The notes under the pieces: model-generated
Databases searched by the model: none
What the model saw: the letters and a program-made list of their open reading frames with translations, nothing else
What the model was told of the DNA's origin: nothing
Position numbers and translations under genes: made by a program
Shown: one piece after another, positions 12,802 through 22,440 of the stretch
Numbering within the stretch: position 1 is the stretch's first letter
Layout: each line of letters starts with the position of its first letter
Origin: Natrinema caseinilyticum
GTDB taxonomy: Archaea > Halobacteriota > Halobacteria > Halobacteriales > Natrialbaceae
DNA length: 64,000 bases
Reading direction: 5' to 3'
Assembly: GCF_024227435.1 (NCBI RefSeq)
Contig: NZ_CP100445.1
Span: 3,407,369 to 3,471,368, forward strand

Positions 12802-12874
12802 GGGCCGGTGGGGTAGCTTGGTATCCTTCGGCCTTCGGGTGGCCGTAACCGCAGTTCGAATCTGCGCCGGCCCA
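12802..12874 (+). tRNA. tRNA-Pro (anticodon CGG)
   Basis: 73-nt cloverleaf. Acceptor GGGCCGG pairs with CCGGCCC, with discriminator A at 12874 and no encoded CCA. D-arm with AGCTTGGTA loop; anticodon stem CGGCC/GGCCG with loop TTCGGGT, giving anticodon CGG (proline, codon CCG); T-arm CGCAG-TTCGAAT-CTGCG. No intron. The accessory island begins at its 3' end, the usual target of archaeal tyrosine integrases. Confidence 0.96.
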
Positions 12875-13061
12875 CTTTACCTCACACCGTTTCTGGAGTC
12901 GAACCAAATCGCCATATAACCCCGGGTTCAGGGGGTCTAGTTACCACTTCCGCGGTGAGAGTTCAATTGCACTGCAATGGGGCGTTCGGGCCGTCATGCG
13001 ATTTGGCTCGAAGCTACCAGGACGAAAGTGTTGCCATCCACCAGTGGCGCGGGCGCGCGTT

Positions 13062-13163
13062 TCACCCGCCCCAGTCGCACGCGCGGCACTCCCGCCGCGG
13101 GAGCCCGCCGCGAGAAGTCGTCGTCTCGATGCGGCCGCCACAGTCAGGACAGTACCGCATCAT
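13062..13163 (-). CDS. 33-aa zinc-ribbon microprotein
   Basis: Starts ATGATG and reads MMRYCPDCGGRIETTT with a later CRAC and WGG at the end, a two-CxxC zinc ribbon. Its ATG overlaps the stop codon of the upstream winged-helix gene (ATGA overlap at 13160-13163), which supports a real, translationally coupled gene. Function unknown; small zinc ribbons are common at the end of plasmid/virus operons. The 13,000-12,880 stretch beyond it, towards the tRNA, has only very short frames. Confidence 0.6.
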   Translation of the reverse strand: MMRYCPDCGGRIETTTSRGGLPRRECRACDWGG

Positions 13164-13526
13164 CGTTTCTTCGCCTCCTCGACGTACCGCGCGAGTTCTT
13201 GTTGGCCGACAATCTCACCGCGATTGCCCTCGCTGGAGGTGTAGCGCTCCAGCGCGTCCCACGCACGCCGAGTGGTTTCCCATTCGCCGTTCTCGCGCTG
13301 CTCAATCAGCCCACGGTTTCGCATGGTGCACAGGACCGAGCGCGACAGCGAGCAGTCGCCCCACCGCCACGTCGCACCGGGTGCCGGCAGATGCTCGTCG
13401 AGCGTCTTCCGGTTCGCCCGCATCCAGCACGCGTTCGCATGGGGTGAGCTTCTGACTGCCGTGGATGGCCGTCGACGACGGCCCGACACCACCAGCGCCA
13501 CCACCGGCAGGCTGCTGCGTACTCAT
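13160..13526 (-). pseudogene. Winged-helix DNA-binding protein, frameshifted
   Basis: The 3' part (13160-13423) reads MRANRKTLDEHLPAPGATW, then LSRSVLCTMRNRGLIEQRE and AWDALERYTSSEGNRGEI, a winged-helix with beta-hairpin. The natural N-terminus MSTQQPAGGGAGGVGPS followed by KLTPCERVLDA lies in another frame starting at ATG 13526, which overlaps the helicase stop by 4 bp. Joining the two needs a one-base shift around 13420-13430. Either the gene is frameshifted or translation restarts at ATG 13423. The tight overlaps on both sides suggest a former operon helicase-wHTH-zinc ribbon. Confidence 0.6.
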
Positions 13527-15003
13527 TCGCTCTCACCCCCAGGCTTCGATGCCTTCGCCGGGCACGTGTAGCGCGTCACCACCAGCGTCCTCGACCACTT
13601 CGCGCGCGCGACGAGTTCGTCGATCGCGCGCTCGACGGCGTCCGGGTCGACCGGGCCGCACAGCCGACCGCTGACCGCAGCGCGGCTGATTTGGCCGCTT
13701 GCCGTCTTCCGCGCGCCGACGCATTTCTTTCTCGACACGGTCGATCGTGCGGCTGTCCGGCACGTCCTCGCCGTCACTCGTGGTGGTGTCGCTGTCGACG
13801 TCCTCGCCGTCACCACCAGCGTCGGGGTCGTCGTCTCCGTCGTCATCGTCGTCGCTGTCCGTGTCAAGCGGGGTACTGACGGTGTCCTGGCTGACGTGTT
13901 CGATTTCCGTGCCGGTCGTGATGAGCAGGGTCTCAAACCCGTTTTCGTCTCGCACCACCTTGCAGTCTCGCAGGATGTAGGTCTCGCCAGCTTCGAGCAC
14001 CGGGGAGTGGGCACGTGCGTGGTATTCTACACCCGCACCACCGTCGTCGATTTCCCCCTCTTCGGCGAGCCAGGGGCGGGCGTCCTCGCCGGCTGCCGAG
14101 TACGTGACCGGCGCGACCACGTCGACGACCGTTCCCGGTTCGATCGCGTCCGGCGGGGTGAGACCGCCGACAACGGTCTCTTCGTCGCTACTGCTGTTGG
14201 CGTCGGCTTCCTCGTCGCCGGCGAGACCGTACCGCGCGGCGACGTTGTCGGGCAGGTGGCGCTCGGCGCCGTCGACCCACTGCACACCCTTCCACGCAGG
14301 CTTCGGGCTGTCCTCGTCGTGGTGGCGGCGAGACTGACCGGTCTCGGCGGCTGCGAGCGGCCCGCGCGTCATCTCCCTTGAGAAGTCCGACTTTGACAGC
14401 TGCTTCACCGATGCCATCTCGTCTGCGACCGACAGGTACGCCATGTGCGCATGTTCTTTGACGATGATGTCGTCGCTCGCGCCCGTGTGCTCGATGAGAC
14501 CGCCGACACGCTGCACCGGGTCGCTGAGGCTCTCGTAAGCCTCCATCCGCTCTTCTTTGCTCTCGGGGATGCTCGTCTCACCGTTTTCGAGGAGGCGCTG
14601 CGCACCCTCGATCGCGAGCGCGAGCAGACGCTCTTGCTCTTCGTCGGTCGTGAGCTTGGCCTTGAGGTTGCGGTCCTTGTCGGGCAGCTCAGGGTCCTCG
14701 TCGCTGTGCTTGTTGGTGAAGGGCACGTGGTACAGCCGTTCCGCGACGGCAGGCCCCTTGTCGCCGAGCGTCGGTGGGTCGTTCGAGCTGAAGATGAGGG
14801 TCACGCGGTTGCGGAAATTGAACGCGTCAACCCCCTTGGGCTCCGCAGCAACCTGGTCGTCCCCGGTCAACTTCTTGAACGTCGACATCTCGTTGATGCG
14901 CTTGCCTGACAGGTCGCTCCCGATGTTCGCCATCGAGTCGACGAGGCTGTACGTCGCGTACGGGTTGGTCGCTAGGCGCTGGAGCTCTCGGTGCGACGTC
15001 TTC
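13523..15003 (-). pseudogene. C-terminal half of a P4/D5-type primase-helicase, 5' truncated and frameshifted
   Basis: Recognisable SF3-helicase C-terminal core: SHRELQRLATNPYATY, then SLVDSMANIGSDLSGKRI, STFKKLTGDDQVAAEPKG, and RVTLIFSSNDPPT (sensor-like Asn). The Walker A and B motifs and the whole primase domain are missing: the homologous frame begins at about 15,003, just after an in-frame TGA. The main frame then runs to about 13,700, where the sense reading moves to another frame (ASGQISRAAVSGRL to KPGGESE, ending 13523). A one-base indel therefore also hits the 3' end. Replication gene of a plasmid or virus, now non-functional. Confidence 0.75.
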
Positions 15004-16599
15004 CCAGCTGTCAGTCACGTCCCCATCTTCATCCAGTTCTTTGAGAGCGTCAGCCAGTTCTTTTTCAGCTACTCCTCCCCAGTCGAAGAGAGTCTCAACT
15101 TCGTGGAATTTGTCTTTCAGAGGCTTGTACCGATCCTGAATGAAGTGTTTCTCATCGCGGCTGAGTTCAGGAGCTACGACGTTAATCGGGATAACCCAAA
15201 GCAGTTCTTCTACGTCGACCTCATGACGAATGTCTGCTGCGACCAAGTCTGCTACTACTGCTTCCCTACCGACAGTCAGTATTTCCATTGCTTCGAAGTT
15301 CTTCTCAATCTTGCCCTCGTATCAGTCGCTTGATTCCTCAATCACAGTCTCCTTCTTGGGGAATGCCTCGTATGAGGGGGCTTCAAAGGGCATTACTGCA
15401 ACAAACGAACCGTCCTCCCACTCGTCTTGTGGCGGCAGTAACGGTTTGATTTCCTCTTCCAGAAAATCAGCAGCAGACTCGTACGTTTGGTTGGCATAGG
15501 TTGCCCTCATGCTCAGAAACTTCGGACTCGGATACCCCTCTCCGGCGACCGACCTCCCCTTCCAACGAATTGTCAGGGGGAAGTTGCTCTCGAATTCATC
15601 TACAACACCATGCTTGTCCTCGGCCGTCATCAATTTCATCGAGAGTACAAGATAGCTACTGTATCGGTCATTTGCCTCTCTCAGTTCCTGCTTTACCTTA
15701 TCCACTTTCTCTTGGATCACATCTTGGGTCAGGCTCCCGATGTCGACTCGGCCAAGCCGGATTAGGTCTGCGAGAGTATCTCGGAACTCGCGGGCCTGTG
15801 CCTCATTGCTAGTCAGATACTGGTAGATCGTCCGATCAGTGTATTTTCTCATAAACTCCCGAACGAGAGCGTCGTTAGGATCTCTAATCTGATCAAACAC
15901 CTCGCCTGGGTCATGTTCCTTCCAAGACTCCTGTCTGAACGATTGATAGACTGAAAGAATTATCTGGGCACGCTTGTCAAGAGGGCGGAAAGACACTCCT
16001 GAGAGAAGGGTGTCGATTTCAGCCTTGTACTTCGACTCAGTGGGAGTGCTCTCTGCTTCGTCGATCTCGTAACTCAGAATCGTAATGAGTCGCGCCTCAG
16101 TCCGATGGTGGTCTTCCTCTGGCAGGAGTTCTTCCGCTGCCTTCTGGTATACCGTTGTCTTCTCAACACTTTCTCTCTCCTCAATCACCGCATCTGCCAC
16201 GGCCTGTTTTTCTGTTGCTGCAGTTTCGGGGGTGTGAATCCCGACTTCGTTAGCCACCTCCAGGAATTCTTCGCAGAGATCGATTGCTGTATTGCGCTTT
16301 TCTTTCGCTTCTCGAGCCTTCTCAACGTGTTCGTAGCTGGCTTTTAGACTCGTGGAGAGGAGACTCAGAAGTGCTAGTCCGACCTGCCGACGGGCTTCAG
16401 GTGCCTTCGAGCGCCCCCATGGAAAGTACCGAAGATTCGTTTTCTTACTCCGCTAGTGCCACCAAAAAGACCGATAATAAGACATGCGCCCCCGAGAATC
16501 ATAAACGGTTGTCGAGGACTCAACTCAAGGAAAACCGTTGCACTCCAAACCATTAGCGCAAGCCCGTACCAGTAGAGGTTATCGTTTTTTCTTTTTCAT
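15004..16599 (-). pseudogene. Two-TM protein with a large soluble domain, broken by two frameshifts, a TGA and 3' truncation
   Basis: Reconstructed as one gene downstream of the JAB-E1 gene. ATG 16599 is followed by an A6 run; with five A's it reads MKKKNDNLYWYG and continues into two TM helices (VWSATVFLEL and FMILGGACLIIGLFGG). A second, compensating shift near 16,430 leads into PWGRSKAPEARRQ and a helical soluble domain that is open to TGA 15324-15322. The same frame continues past that TGA as YEGKIEKNFEAMEILTVG and runs to DSWEDV at about 15,004. There it runs out of frame into the helicase fragment. Open pieces: 15322-16257 (GTG) and 14827-15288. No family recognised. Lower GC than its neighbours. 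A possible effector or partner of the ubiquitin-like operon, by position only. Confidence 0.6.
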
Positions 16600-16637
16600 T
16601 GAAACAGCCCTTTTGATGGCGTATTTGAGTATCCCTT

Positions 16638-18395
16638 TCAGCTATCTTTCCCCGGTAGTTCGTCATGGATGCTCGTGAACGCGTCAAGTTCTCTACGTAG
16701 GTCGTAGTCGTGGCCAGTTCCGAGGTCGTGTGTATCTCCACGGGCCGTCGCCTCGGGACGAGTACACTCGCCACGGCACTCAGTACGGCGCTCACCGTCT
16801 GAGCTACGCCACTGCATGGTCCCATAGTACAGCCGATAGCGCTGCCCACCGACAATCGTCTCAGTGGTAGTCCCAACTATGAGTGCTTGAAGGCGCTCAG
16901 CCATTATTGAAGCGACCAACCCGTTCGTCGGGGCTACACTTGGGTCACGCGGGGCATCTGCCCCGTCATCATCGTTTGGTTCGGCGTACAGATCAGGGCC
17001 ACCACCACGGTCAGCGGGGGGTTTCTTGTCCCGAATGACACCCTCTTCACGATCGCCCCACATCCACACGTTCTGACATTCGAAGCATGGGTGGACGGGA
17101 CCCGTTGCGGTGATCTCTGAGCGCGACATAGGGTGCATCGTGTCGGCCGACTTGTCAGCCCGCAAGTCTGTTCCTCCGTTGATAACCGGAATAAGATGGG
17201 CCCGTGCGAGCTCGTCAACAACCATCCGTACCCAATGCGGGTCTGCTGCGTTCAGGATCACATCACAGTCCAGTAGATCCCCAACAGCAGCGTGCTCGGG
17301 AGACTGGTTCTCAACGATGCTGCCGACTACAGCGCGAGCTTCAAACCCAGGGGCAGTCGCGTGCTGTTCAGCGACTCGACGGGCGACCTCTGCTTTCGGC
17401 CGCTGGTGGCGGGCATCTTCTTTTGTCGCGCCGAGCGCTCGGTTCCGGTTTACTGGTTTGACCCGATCGAAGTCGACAAACACGGCGCCGCCAACACCCA
17501 GCATCGCGAGCTCAGCAGCGAGGTACGATCCTACACCACCACACCCGACGACGCCAACACGGACACCACTGAGAGCGAACTGACCTCGTTTTCCCCACAG
17601 TTGCACGGCACTATCCTGTTCCGTCGGGTTCACCCGACCGCTAATCCCAGCTGGACCTGCTGCTCGAGACGTGTGAGTGGTCGCCAGCTTCTGAAAACCA
17701 GGGCCAACAACGCGAATCGCAGTCGCATGTCGCTGTCGGGCCGATTCTTCGCCAGTCGGCTTGAGATCGGGATCGTCAACGGTCGCTGGCGTGTCGAATT
17801 CATAGGCCCGGAAGGACCATTCGCGATGGCCACTCTCTCGGCGCGGCCGTTCTGCGATGATGCCGGCTGCCAGTGGGACATCCGGCCCAAGATTCTTTGC
17901 CGCGTTGTAGAGACGCGTTCGATCCGCACGTAGGTCTGGGTCGGAGGGATACGCGCTACCCCCTGGGTGCGAGTGGAAATAGACGAGTCCCCCGCCGGAA
18001 ACCTCTGCTGCGCGGGCAGTTGCTCGCGTCCGGTATCCTGGACTGAACAGCAGGCGTGGATGCCCCTGTCTGGTGTCGATATAGACGTCGTCGTCACTGG
18101 TCGGGGCGACAATGTCTTTAAGCAGATACGTTGTCCGGGTCTCACCCGTACTCCTAGTGATGATACCGATTACGCCCCGCTCGCGCATCCCGGTCAGATA
18201 CTCGGCGCCAGTAGGTCGATCCTCAGTGCTATCTCTGGCGGGTTCCGATCCGCGATTAAGGAGTCCCTCGCCATCGGGGAACAGGTAGCCGTAGAGCTCA
18301 TCGTAGTGCTCTTCGGTTAGTGCGAACTGGAACTCCTCGGCGTCCGTGACTGAATATCGTTCGGGCAGGCCAGGGTCGCGACTGGCGTCCCTCAT
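16638..18395 (-). CDS. JAB metalloprotease - E1-like (ThiF) activating enzyme fusion
   Basis: 585 aa. N-terminal JAB/JAMM domain with FHSHPGG, fitting H-x-H-x7-S-x2-D (H141, H143, S151, D154), the deubiquitinase-type zinc site. C-terminal ThiF/E1 adenylation domain with nucleotide loop GCGGVG (284-289), VDFDRVKPVNRNR, and a Lys in RPKAEVA. A zinc-binding set follows, C437-x2-C440 and C540-x3-C544. The only other Cys are C285 (in the loop) and C377, so no E1 catalytic Cys is seen in the crossover region. Its ATG overlaps the E2 stop by 1 nt. Expected role: process the Ubl tail and adenylate it, and possibly remove it from targets. Confidence 0.88.
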   Translation of the reverse strand: MRDASRDPGLPERYSVTDAEEFQFALTEEHYDELYGYLFPDGEGLLNRGSEPARDSTEDRPTGAEYLTGMRERGVIGIITRSTGETRTTYLLKDIVAPTSDDDVYIDTRQGHPRLLFSPGYRTRATARAAEVSGGGLVYFHSHPGGSAYPSDPDLRADRTRLYNAAKNLGPDVPLAAGIIAERPRRESGHREWSFRAYEFDTPATVDDPDLKPTGEESARQRHATAIRVVGPGFQKLATTHTSRAAGPAGISGRVNPTEQDSAVQLWGKRGQFALSGVRVGVVGCGGVGSYLAAELAMLGVGGAVFVDFDRVKPVNRNRALGATKEDARHQRPKAEVARRVAEQHATAPGFEARAVVGSIVENQSPEHAAVGDLLDCDVILNAADPHWVRMVVDELARAHLIPVINGGTDLRADKSADTMHPMSRSEITATGPVHPCFECQNVWMWGDREEGVIRDKKPPADRGGGPDLYAEPNDDDGADAPRDPSVAPTNGLVASIMAERLQALIVGTTTETIVGGQRYRLYYGTMQWRSSDGERRTECRGECTRPEATARGDTHDLGTGHDYDLRRELDAFTSIHDELPGKDS

Positions 18396-18973
18396 CAGTT
18401 ACCTCCTCCCGCGTTAAGCGCACTCTCGGCAGCCAATACGGCCCTGCTCATATCGGCTGGATCGTCTGGTTCCAAATCCATGTGGCTCCACCGCCAGCTC
18501 CAGGCGAGCGCGGTGTCAGCGTCGCTAACCTCCAGCACGAGACTGACCTTATCGCCGTGATTCTGGTCGGGGTCACGGAACGTGTTCCGGTCGCAGTGAT
18601 CTCCGACATCGCGGCCGTTCACCGTCAGTGCTGGTGTCGTAATAAACCAATGCGGGTCGTCTTGAGGGAAGTCCTCGCTCAAGAGGAAGTACCCTTCGGC
18701 GCGTGATTGATCGTAGTCGGGTGTGCAGTCAGTGAGGTCAAACACACCCAACCAGACGAGGACGTCGTTTCCTCGCCGTTTGACTGGTCTAGCCTCCTGG
18801 CACCGGTCCCGGTCACGAAGGGCAGTAAGTCCCGTTTGGAAGTCCGGTTTCAATTCCGACTCGTCGATTGCTGCTGGCGGTTCAGGATCGTCTGTTGTTG
18901 CTATGTGGTTACCCCCAGACGTCCTGGCGCCGGCGTCACCACTGTCTTCGCGAGTTGTCGGTTTGTCAGCCAT
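18395..18973 (-). CDS. E2-like ubiquitin-conjugating family protein (Prok-E2_E-like)
   Basis: 192 aa. A disordered acidic N-terminus (about 1-40) precedes an alpha/beta domain. EGYFLLSEDFPQDDPHWFI resembles the E2 strand plus YPxxPP segment, NGRDVGDHCDRN holds a Cys (127) at about the position of an E2 active site, and WSWRWSHMDLEPDDP with a final helix matches the end of bacterial E2-like proteins. Other Cys: C58, C83. Position between a Ubl gene and a JAB-E1 gene, with a 1-nt overlap to the latter, is the main support. The active residue cannot be assigned from sequence alone. Confidence 0.72.
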   Translation of the reverse strand: MADKPTTREDSGDAGARTSGGNHIATTDDPEPPAAIDESELKPDFQTGLTALRDRDRCQEARPVKRRGNDVLVWLGVFDLTDCTPDYDQSRAEGYFLLSEDFPQDDPHWFITTPALTVNGRDVGDHCDRNTFRDPDQNHGDKVSLVLEVSDADTALAWSWRWSHMDLEPDDPADMSRAVLAAESALNAGGGN

Positions 18974-18985
18974 CGACTTGTCGCT

Positions 18986-19309
18986 CTAAGCGATGGTGTC
19001 CGAGTTCCCGTCGGTGCGGGTCTGGACGAAGAATCGTTCGCGACCGGGCTCGCTGAGGTCGACCGTATCGCTAGGGCGGTAGTCTTCCTCATCATCGGGG
19101 GCTACGAGAACTGACTTGCTGATTTCGTCGTCGGTGTAGCCCGCGTCTTCCATGAGCGTGCGGGCGGTCTGTTCGGAGTCTGGGTATGAGAGTGTGGTGT
19201 CGCCGACCCGCACCTCGAAAGTACCATCGACCGACCCATCAGCGTTCTCTGAGCCGCGAGAGTTGTTTTCTGTCGATTCGTCTTCCGTGTGGTGGTCCTC
19301 TGAACTCAT
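18986..19309 (-). CDS. Ubiquitin-like modifier (Multi_ubiq-type beta-grasp), single copy
   Basis: 107 aa. An acidic disordered N-terminus (1-29) is followed by one beta-grasp-like domain, about 30-97. It opens with a strand FEVRVGDTTLSY and has a helix SEQTARTLMEDAG. It ends with VDLSEPGRERFFVQTR, the VDL...G.E.FF pattern of the Pfam Multi_ubiq family. The C-terminus is TDGNSDTIA, not a bare GG, so it would need trimming after Gly101 if a Gly end is used; the JAB domain of the E1 fusion could do this. First gene of the operon, 12 nt before the E2-like gene. Confidence 0.72.
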   Translation of the reverse strand: MSSEDHHTEDESTENNSRGSENADGSVDGTFEVRVGDTTLSYPDSEQTARTLMEDAGYTDDEISKSVLVAPDDEEDYRPSDTVDLSEPGRERFFVQTRTDGNSDTIA

Positions 19310-19351
19310 GTGATCACTGCTCGATGTCGGCTCGAGCGGGCCTTCCAGTGT

Positions 19352-19363
19352 GAATCTGCGCCG
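19352..19363. repeat. 12-bp copy of the tRNA-Pro T-arm (candidate att)
   Basis: GAATCTGCGCCG here is identical to 12858-12869 in the T-arm/acceptor of tRNA-Pro. It lies in the 5' leader of the Ubl operon. The identity ends at CCGT versus CCGG. Short, so chance cannot be excluded. Confidence 0.35.
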
Positions 19364-19419
19364 TCTGAATCATTTCGCGTCTGGAAAGAGGGACGAGTTG
19401 ACAATAAGGGTTCTCTAAA

Positions 19420-19439
19420 CTACTCTCGATCGAGAGTAG
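19420..19439. promoter_or_regulatory. 20-bp perfect palindrome between Ubl operon and TrmB-like gene
   Basis: CTACTCTCGA and its exact reverse complement TCGAGAGTAG meet at the centre. It sits between divergent promoters, 111 bp from the Ubl start and 59 bp from the regulator start. TrmB-type regulators bind palindromes, so this is a likely operator; the partner is inferred. Confidence 0.7.
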
Positions 19440-19463
19440 GTAGTCACAACTAATGAGAAGTAG

Positions 19464-19488
19464 TTTTAAATACTCACCAAGATGAGTA
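19464..19488 (+). promoter_or_regulatory. TATA box and inverted repeat at the TrmB-like promoter
   Basis: TTTTAAATA (19464-19472) lies about 28 nt before ATG 19498, giving a leaderless transcript. Overlapping its 3' end is TACTCA-N6-TGAGTA (19471-19488), whose half-site echoes the TACTCT half-site of the nearby palindrome. A bound repressor here would block initiation, suggesting autoregulation. Confidence 0.6.
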
Positions 19489-19497
19489 TGTGCTTAC

Positions 19498-20256
19498 ATG
19501 GTCGGGTCGGACTCGAATATCGCCCAGCTCAAATCGATTCTTAGGGGGGAACTTGGCTGGACCCAGTACCAGGCTGCTGCTTACTGTGCGCTGGTTGTTG
19601 GTGGAGAGATGCAGGCTAGCGACGTCGAACTTGAGGCCGACATCCCGAACTCGCGAGTTTACGGCGTTTTAAACAAGCTTGAGGATCAGGGCCGAATTCG
19701 CCAAACGGGGATGCGCCCGAAGACGTACGACGCGATCCACCCAAGAGACGTGATTAACGATGAGGTGAACCAATACCGTCAGAAGTCCGAGACAGCGAAA
19801 AGCCACCTCGAACAAGCCTGGGAAACGGAACGAGTTGCTGGTGACGGGAGCGACGGGACGTGGGCACTCAATAGCAGCCGCGGCTTGATCAACCAAGCCC
19901 GTAGTCAGATCGAGCAGGCGGAAAGTAGTGTTCGAGTGGTCGATCGAAACCTACGGTGGATGTCGCGGGACGACAGGGAAACCTTAGCAGACCTGTCTGA
20001 CGGGGATGTCGATGTGAAGGTCATCGGTAGTGTTGACGCTAAAACCACGGAACGACTCGCAGATGATGGGGTAGAGGCGTATCAACACGAGGAAATCGTA
20101 CGGAACTTCTACGTAATTGACGAACAGCAGGTAGTCGCTCGCGTCGCGCGTGATGGGACTGGAATCGCGTTCACTGACGAAAGCATGGCAACAATTTATA
20201 TACAAGACTTCGAAGATACACTAGAGGAGGCAACCGAGGTGGCCCCAATTGCGTAG
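19498..20256 (+). CDS. TrmB-family transcriptional regulator
   Basis: 252 aa. N-terminal winged helix (about 10-80: TQYQAAAYCALVVGGEMQAS, SRVYGVLNKLEDQGRIR, then KTYDAIHPRDVI), a coiled-coil helix about 85-115, and a C-terminal domain resembling the TrmB/PLD-like sensor fold. TrmB proteins are archaeal repressors or activators, often sugar-responsive, but no sugar site is evident. Divergent from the Ubl operon with two palindromes between them, so probably its regulator and its own. Its stop overlaps the next gene by 8 nt. Confidence 0.82.
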   Translation: MVGSDSNIAQLKSILRGELGWTQYQAAAYCALVVGGEMQASDVELEADIPNSRVYGVLNKLEDQGRIRQTGMRPKTYDAIHPRDVINDEVNQYRQKSETAKSHLEQAWETERVAGDGSDGTWALNSSRGLINQARSQIEQAESSVRVVDRNLRWMSRDDRETLADLSDGDVDVKVIGSVDAKTTERLADDGVEAYQHEEIVRNFYVIDEQQVVARVARDGTGIAFTDESMATIYIQDFEDTLEEATEVAPIA

Positions 20257-20683
20257 AGAACTGATTCCACTGGCGTTGATGTATTCACAGGATCAGGAAG
20301 AAATCCAGGGTCGTACTCGGTTCCAGAAGATGGTTTTCTTACTCCAACAGGAGTTTGGGAATACCGAGTTCTACGATTTCGAGGCCTACGATTACGGCCC
20401 CTTCTCAAAGGGACTCTACGACGACTTAGACGACCTCATTGACCGGAATCTCATAAAGGAAACGAGAGAGGAATTTGATGAGGATAAGGTGTACTACGAG
20501 TACAAGCTGACTGACGCGGGGCGAGAACTGATTGAACGCCTTTCTGACCAAGAGCGGGCGCAGGACATTATGGCGCTCTCGGAGCGACTAAAACAGGAGA
20601 TCAACTCAGAGGATCTTTCGGTAGTCTTGGACCGCGTGTACTCAGAATATCCTGAATACGCTGAAAATAGCGTTCTTCGATAA
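20249..20683 (+). CDS. YwgA/Panacea-like protein
   Basis: 144 aa, TTG start overlapping the TrmB-like stop by 8 nt; an ATG at 20279 is the alternative. The segments RTRFQKMVFLLQQEFG, FEAYDYGPFSKGLYDDLDDLI and YKLTDAGRELIE match the YwgA / SocA-Panacea type fold, which occurs in phage-associated proteins and as antitoxin domains in toxin-antitoxin systems. The final part is helical. Coupling to a regulator next to the Ubl operon suggests a control or neutralising role, which is inference. Codon use is less GC-rich than core genes. Confidence 0.6.
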   Translation: MRRELIPLALMYSQDQEEIQGRTRFQKMVFLLQQEFGNTEFYDFEAYDYGPFSKGLYDDLDDLIDRNLIKETREEFDEDKVYYEYKLTDAGRELIERLSDQERAQDIMALSERLKQEINSEDLSVVLDRVYSEYPEYAENSVLR

Positions 20684-20779
20684 TCGCTCGCTTGGCTTCT
20701 CAACTCTAACTGCCCTCACCAGAATCCCATAATCAGACTGTTGGCAGTTCATGCTATACTCTCGCTAGTCCATCCTTCC

Positions 20780-21175
20780 CTAATCGCGGCTGTCGAGCCA
20801 ATCAATTGTATCATTGACGAGACCAAGCCGATATTCGATCAACCGACCCTCCTGTTCTTCGGACTGGCCAGCGCATTCGGTCAATTCCCGACGGAGTTGG
20901 GCGAGATCGTCACGGTCGTGTTCTTCGACAAGGCGCCGTATCTCTTGTTCGCGCTCGTAGCCCGGGTTGGGCGCGTACGTTCTCTCACCACCGTCGTCGA
21001 CAGTCTCCACCACGCCGGCATCGGCTAATTATGAAAGGTGCTTCTGTGCTGTTTCTATGGGTACGAGGACTGTATCAGCTATCCAGCCGGCCGGCCGCGG
21101 TTGCGAGAGGGTGCGCACGACGCTACGAACGCGCTCGCAATCAGACGCTACGTTCTCCCACTCTGACCGGCCCAT
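20780..21175 (-). pseudogene. Haloarchaeal winged-helix protein (DUF7342-like), split by TAA
   Basis: One frame runs from ATG 21175 to 20780 (132 codons): MGRSEWENVASDCERVRSVV, then RPAGWIADTVLVPIETAQKHLS, a TAA at 21031-21029, then LADAGVVETVDDGGERTYAP and REQEIRRLVEEHDRDDLAQ. The wHTH reads smoothly across the stop, so this is a nonsense lesion in one gene. The downstream part alone opens with GTG at 21013. The family is recalled as DUF7342, unverified. Confidence 0.65.
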
Positions 21176-21672
21176 AGGTCAGAGTAAACACAAGAAGAGA
21201 ATAAACCCGGGGTTAGATGTCGTCTAGGTTGCATACAGAATCACCGTCGCTAGATAGCGACTCTTCAACTGATTGTCCGTATATTTCAGTTTGAGAGGGA
21301 TGACTGTTTGTTTCATCCAGCGATCGACGAGGATTTATGTGCCTGCGGGGGAACCTTCGACGCTTCGACCGGGAATCGGAATGCGGACCTGCTCACGAAC
21401 GGCGGAACCGGCACCGTACTCCGTTCGACGACGGCGGCGTTCGATCACGATCCGTCTGGCGTAGAATTACAACGCGTCTTGGGTATCACTTCCAGGGCCT
21501 CCAACGGTTCGTTGCTCTCGAGATGATCGCCGACGTCATCGATAGACGGTCGACGACGAGGAGACCGATCAACAGAGCGACGAACGGCCGGCCGCCTCAC
21601 TACCCGTCCCGGCTTACCCGGGTCGCTGTTTTCGAACGACACACTACCGCTCGTTCGACTGACCCTCGCACG
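21176..21672. other. Intergenic region with a 7-bp perfect hairpin; no gene supported
   Basis: About 500 bases at the right edge of the accessory region. It contains GTCGCTA-GA-TAGCGAC at 21246-21261, a perfect inverted repeat (operator or terminator-like). Frames such as 21308-21526 (+) and 21445-21642 (-) show no recognisable protein signal and look like decayed or non-coding sequence. Confidence 0.4.
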
Positions 21673-22068: not shown

Positions 22069-22354
22069 TGGTACTATATTGTAATAGGCACACAAAACCG
22101 TGACGTTTCGGCGGGTGATCGGACGGTTCGGAGACGGTCGAATCGGCTCCGCCCGACTCGGAGCAGGGGCCAGCCAATCGCGATGGTCCCGAACGGCGGG
22201 CCCGGTTCCAGGACCGGGCCCGGACCAACCGTTCGTCACAGCGCGTGTCGCGGGAGCGTCATCCAGGCCTCCGGGGTCGGATGATGGACGAGGAACGGGT
22301 TCGGTACGACGCCCGATCGGGACTGAGACGTCACGGACAGACGTTCGTCGACGC

Positions 22355-22440
22355 GAGTGCCGCGGTGGCGTGACTGTCGGAGTGGCGGGAGTGCCGCGGT
22401 GGCGTGACTGTCACAGTGGCGGGAGTGTCATTACTGGCGG
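22355..22440. repeat. 34-bp tandem repeat, two full copies plus a remnant
   Basis: 22355-22388 and 22389-22422 are near-identical (unit begins GAGTGCCGCGGTGGCGTGAC; they differ at two adjacent bases), followed by a degenerate partial copy to 22440. It is in the 381-base gap (22069-22449) between the rhodanese and the APC transporter, which has no supported gene. The direct repeat suggests slippage. Confidence 0.85.

Follow-up and report, generated by a model that had tools for sequence, protein, structure and literature searches.

Operons of type 6e encode a cysteine-less E2/RWD-like protein together with an E1 to which a JAB domain is fused at the N-terminus (PMC1779556). In 2006, Iyer, Burroughs and Aravind regarded the E2-like proteins of this type as inactive for want of the cysteine, and their study reported the type from proteobacteria, cyanobacteria and actinobacteria only (PMC1779556). 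The Bub pathway comprises, in Citrobacter, the proteins BubA, BubB and BubCD (Gong et al. 2025; Ye et al. 2026, both as cited in PMC13373217). Bacterial Bub operons often stand under DNA-damage regulators, and phage protection by them has not been demonstrated (PMC13373217). In the literature consulted, Bub operons are described from bacteria only. Here we describe an operon from the haloarchaeon Natrinema caseinilyticum, found in a stretch of 64,000 nucleotides that is referred to below as the window. It encodes a ubiquitin-like protein (Ubl), an E2-like protein and a JAB-E1 fusion, and is probably best explained as a haloarchaeal Bub-like (operon type 6e), cysteine-free protein-modification module, for which a stress or anti-element role would be the most likely.

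All three reading frames lie on the reverse strand at the coordinates in Table 1, are intact and are tightly packed. They are transcribed in the order Ubl, E2-like, JAB-E1, with 12 nt between the Ubl stop and the E2-like start, while the E2-like stop overlaps the JAB-E1 start in the sequence TGATGA. Halobacteria genomes were scanned for the JAB-E1 fusion, 292 in a first set and then 391, yielding 18 full-length relatives in 17 of the 391 genomes (E ≤ 1.6e-186), the window's own counted. The window JAB-E1 and its full-length relatives define the haloarchaeal operon set that we call type A. E2-like and Ubl genes were found directly upstream of the JAB-E1 gene at every type-A locus inspected, and type-A operons are mostly located on plasmids or small replicons; for example, a 181,778 bp replicon of one genome (G242) holds the same operon, and named plasmids also carry relatives. 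Between close type-A relatives, dN/dS is mostly 0.07-0.3 for both E1 and E2 and, judged by these ratios, the two proteins are under purifying selection. The trio is therefore not a chance arrangement, as it recurs in 16 other genomes of the 391 searched and has low dN/dS, and the three-gene operon proposed from the sequence alone is real. A single-protein scan of genome contigs found no relatives, and a search of IMG/VR returned one distant locus only (L061). This locus, on a 143 kb contig classified as viral, has separate JAB and E1 genes together with an ImmA/IrrE-like gene and an E2 of Bub type with the motif KFSWSH.

Table 1. Features of the operon and its surroundings, in window positions.
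Feature	Position	Strand	Basis
Ubl, 107 aa; acidic, disordered N-terminus, then a single beta-grasp domain (about residues 27-101)	18986..19309	-	Multi_ubiq and AlphaFold
Predicted maturation site, Gly101 followed by tail NSDTIA	18989..19009	-	Gly and tail in family
E2-like protein, 192 aa, UBC fold, without conserved cysteine	18395..18973	-	AlphaFold and structural match
Ser159 codon of E2-like protein, candidate nucleophile, motif [FYW]-S	18497..18499	-	Invariant in E2 alignment
JAB-E1 fusion, 585 aa	16638..18395	-	N-terminal JAMM peptidase, C-terminal ThiF-type adenylation domain with Zn knuckle
JAMM core H141-x-H143 ... S151 ... D154	17934..17975	-	Sequence
Nucleotide-binding loop GCGGVGS, residues 284-290	17526..17546	-	Sequence and relatives
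First Zn cysteine pair, C437 and C440	17076..17087	-	Sequence and relatives
Second Zn cysteine pair, C540 and C544	16764-16778	-	Sequence and relatives
Genomic insertion holding the operon, about 8.7 kb	12877..21611	.	Comparison with same-genus genome G391
tRNA-Pro (CGG), left border of insertion	12802..12875	+	Homology to G391 site stops at tRNA 3' end
Truncated P4-type primase, inside insertion	13533-14933		Similarity to primases begins at an internal position
Divergent TrmB-type regulator adjoining operon	19498..20256	+	TrmB 1.3e-15

The JAB-E1 fusion matched the Pfam models ThiF (7.4e-31) and Prok-JAB (5.2e-7), and Citrobacter BubCD matched the JAB-E1 profile at 1.7e-38 over 427 positions. 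The JAMM residues E72, H141, H143, S151 and D154 are all present in the window protein. H141 and D154 are invariant across 16 relatives, as are most of the JAMM, nucleotide-loop and zinc residues, and D154 aligns with D104 of BubCD, which is replaced in the D104A structures. The sequence-only reading had described these three sites as intact, and the conserved residues agree with it. In one type-A subclade (L009, L011 and L021), HTQ replaces HxH in the JAMM motif, and the JAB domain of these members may, to go by that motif, be inactive or altered.

The phylogenetic placement of the E1 also points towards Bub. In a phylogeny of 34 E1s, whose long branches leave the exact position of individual sequences uncertain, type A forms one clade (100/100), which is adjoined by a Rhodococcus operon (100/99) and has bacterial Bub sequences near it. 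A second haloarchaeal JAB-E1 family, type B (L012, L049, L050, L052, L053, L054, L056, L057 and L059), resembles type A in that a JAB-E1 fusion is preceded by E2-like and Ubl genes, likewise in Halobacteria, but it forms a separate clade (97/91), its E2 carries a Cys in the canonical position and its Ubl ends near ...FG. Loci L052, L053, L054 and L059 of type B carry a second, cysteine-less E2-like protein.

For the Ubl, the match to Multi_ubiq (E=1.3e-4, 22.6 bits) falls marginally below the curated cut-off of 24.5. The beta-grasp fold that had been predicted for it appears in the AlphaFold model, computed with an alignment of relatives, in which residues of about 30-98 are well modelled and whose best matches are the Citrobacter, E. 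coli and Methylobacterium multi-ubiquitin proteins and BubA (Z 8.7-9.3; next 6.5). Every haloarchaeal type-A Ubl has a Gly followed by 2-6 tail residues (...RTDG-NSDTIA in the window), and bacterial Ubls have 0-3 residues after the Gly. Such a Gly and short tail would fit the maturation to be expected of the fused JAMM domain.

The E2-like protein gave no Pfam match at E≤1, Prok-E2_E (PF14462) included, a model matched at that level by 3 of the 17 type-A E2-like proteins (set A1). The HMM search proposed with the sequence-only reading thus succeeded for ThiF and Prok-JAB, fell just short for Multi_ubiq and failed for Prok-E2_E. HHalign nevertheless related the type-A E2-like proteins to bacterial Bub E2s at 3e-8, and the AlphaFold model computed with an alignment of relatives (pLDDT 81.2) has the UBC fold that had been anticipated. 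Its top solved match is Citrobacter BubB (9eae_C), which reached a VIA Z of 10.4 across 127 residues, well clear of the following chains (6.5). The Foldseek E-value of the same model (0.039) and the missing Prok-E2_E match count against the Bub reading. Neither condition named for rejecting the sequence-only reading, a Ubl without a beta-grasp or an E2-like protein without a UBC fold, was borne out by the models.

No conserved cysteine was found in an alignment of 27 type-A and bacterial Bub E2s, in which C127 of the window protein has a counterpart in two close relatives only, and that shifted. Similarly, the catalytic cysteine of UbaA-type E1s, which lies within PDCATTG in the host's own E1, has no Cys counterpart in the aligned E1s of type A, type B and Bub. 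As E1 and E2 are both without catalytic cysteines, the usual thioester relay is absent, and the earlier description of the trio as a full conjugation set of the conventional kind is not supported. The alternative that the alignments offer is a putative oxyester on Ser159. This residue is invariant in 17/17 haloarchaeal and 10/10 Bub E2s (27/27), occupying one column in the merged type-A alignment. A profile-profile comparison of Bub with type B E2s (3.2e-12) sets wqRWSrH over w..wCihd and so places the Bub Ser on the E2 Cys, with the caveat that L028 and L064 (FSWH) are gapped differently from RWSRH and have their Ser outside the Cys column. The residue following the Ser is His in bacterial Bub E2s and R, K, Q or another in type A, a difference that speaks against the Bub reading. 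Ser159 could also serve a structural role. A Ser that replaces the E2 Cys raises the testable question of whether a ubiquitin-type relay can run on oxyesters.

From these parts we infer a sequence of catalytic steps in which the JAMM domain would trim the Ubl tail to expose Gly101, and the E1 domain would adenylate this residue. The UBC-fold partner would then relay the Ubl to an amine or hydroxyl of the target, with no cysteine thioester on either E1 or E2 and most likely through the invariant Ser159, and the JAMM domain would also remove the tag. Our specific proposal, which we hold tentatively, is of a haloarchaeal Ubl cascade without cysteine that forms a Ser oxyester on the E2-like protein, operates alongside SAMPylation and is encoded by a cassette swapped among plasmid DNA-repair/defence islands. 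It is also conceivable, though rather unlikely, that the E2-like protein is an inactive RWD/UEV-like scaffold that positions the Ubl or its target, with the E1 alone moving the Ubl from Ubl-AMP to a lysine. The description of the 6e proteins as inactive and cysteine-less (PMC1779556) would suit such a role, as would the UEV domains that score level with active E2s after BubB in the structural comparison (Z about 6.3-6.5) and the lack of the UbaA-type cysteine in the E1s of types A, B and Bub. However, an invariant Ser at the place of the type B E2 Cys exceeds the needs of a pure scaffold.

Comparison with the same-genus genome G391 confirmed that the operon is part of a haloarchaeal island. 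Homology between the two genomes stops at 12876, at the 3' end of tRNA-Pro, and restarts at 21612, whereas in G391 only 719 bp of unrelated sequence separates the same flanks; a GC drop from about 0.62-0.68 to 0.55-0.58 was also seen. A search of the 64-kb window for an attR duplicate of this tRNA end found none. Across the genus, the 3' end of tRNA-Pro serves as a hotspot for insertion, with partial copies of it 0.1-20 kb downstream in three relatives (G143, G291 and G376), and a short tandem repeat with 17-nt steps lies just outside the insertion (22352-22419).

The DNA around the operon had been called otherwise decayed, which holds for the neighbouring primase but not for the TrmB-type regulator or a 311-aa ORF, both of which are open frames. 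The TrmB-type protein is a possible regulator of the operon, and it was not seen at the other type-A loci inspected. An ORF at 20249-20683 overlaps the stop of the TrmB-type gene and matches SocA/Panacea and DarG C-terminal-like models. The truncated primase would be in keeping with a non-functional passenger that is decaying on an element integrated long ago, but this is very unlikely given that none of the three frames is disrupted, that every predicted active-site residue is retained and that the relatives are under purifying selection. Least probable is a sulphur-carrier or small-molecule pathway of the ThiS/MoaD kind, in which the adenylated Ubl would become a thiocarboxylate or a donor in metabolite synthesis and the JAB domain act as a processing protease, since, although the adenylation domain is ThiF/MoeB-like, no conserved sulphurtransferase, rhodanese or biosynthetic gene lies beside the operon at the loci inspected, a UBC-fold partner is always there and the closest solved relatives come from a conjugation pathway.

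The plasmid neighbourhoods of type-A operons give some indication of what a Bub-like module might do in the cell. On several plasmids, the operon is located among genes for UvrD-PD-(D/E)XK, an HRQ1/MrfA-like helicase and an RNase_H_2 nuclease. For example, the plasmids of Haloarcula litorea (L018) and Halorarius halobius (L026) share flanks of 92-95% identity with genes for UvrD-PDDEXK, an MrfA-like helicase and RNase_H_2, while the E1s between them are only 37% identical, and the module was therefore replaced at its site. Such in-place exchange is common for defence genes, and a replacement within almost unchanged plasmid surroundings favours a function in conflict or stress, while the DNA-repair neighbours echo the DNA-damage control of bacterial Bub operons. 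On a Salinirubellus plasmid, the Ubl operon is preceded by a PLD-like gene, and two genes ahead of the latter stands a Piwi-domain (Argonaute-like) gene (L025:1-2176). The mobility of the module, its patchy distribution and its exchange between plasmids beside DNA-processing genes lead us to infer that, at the level of the cell, it most likely acts inducibly in stress or against mobile elements.

Among other prokaryotic systems, SAMP, UbaA and HvJAMM1 are similar to the window set in combining an archaeal Ubl, a ThiF-family E1 and a JAMM protease. However, the SAMP system has no E2 and relies on a stand-alone UbaA with a catalytic Cys, whereas type-A operons always have a UBC-fold gene and their E1 has no Cys in the region corresponding to PDCATTG. 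The small SAMP Ubls are not known to be Multi_ubiq proteins. The host encodes a UbaA-type E1 in a separate gene (G000:C1:1971932), and the distinctness from SAMP and UbaA noted in the sequence-only reading is thereby upheld. Bil and CBASS Cap2/Cap3 are likewise prokaryotic E1/E2/JAB sets in mobile defence loci, but differ in gene architecture and in having an E2 with a catalytic Cys, which the window E2-like protein lacks; the PADLOC E1-E2 models gave a weak match, to the adenylation core only.

The suggested kinship to the Multi_ubiq/Prok-E2_E operon type is supported, as the three parts, analysed independently, all point to the same system, Bub. The window operon shares with type 6e a Multi_ubiq-type Ubl, an E2/RWD-like protein of the kind described as inactive and a JAB-E1. 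It contains an N-terminal JAB-ThiF fusion and an adjacent Ubl of the Multi_ubiq family, whose members have 1-3 beta-grasp domains, with a cysteine-less UBC-fold gene between them, but it lacks the Zn-finger gene Y (DUF6527) of that type. DUF6527 (PF20137) was found by motif and HMM search in 0/17 type-A genomes and is annotated at 8/10 of the bacterial loci inspected, so that it is usual but not universal in Bub operons. Its absence counts against the Bub reading and is the reason why type A is named Bub-like, a diverged branch, and not a plain member. Bub and type A have in common a Ubl, a cysteine-less UBC-fold protein with a conserved [FW]-S and an N-terminal JAB on a ThiF-type E1, as well as the gene order and a frequent location on mobile elements. 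In contrast to Bub, type A is an archaeal clade with a single Ubl domain that bears an N-terminal disordered or long coiled-coil-like extension, an E2 that falls outside Prok-E2_E by HMM and has lost the H after the S, and an E1 that keeps four Zn cysteines; neither CapH/CapP nor CapW was seen beside the operon. Type A appears to be an archaeal variant of Bub and type 6e that the literature consulted does not describe, and this archaeal branch makes a Bub-like system testable in Haloferax, where good genetics and a well-studied SAMP background are available.
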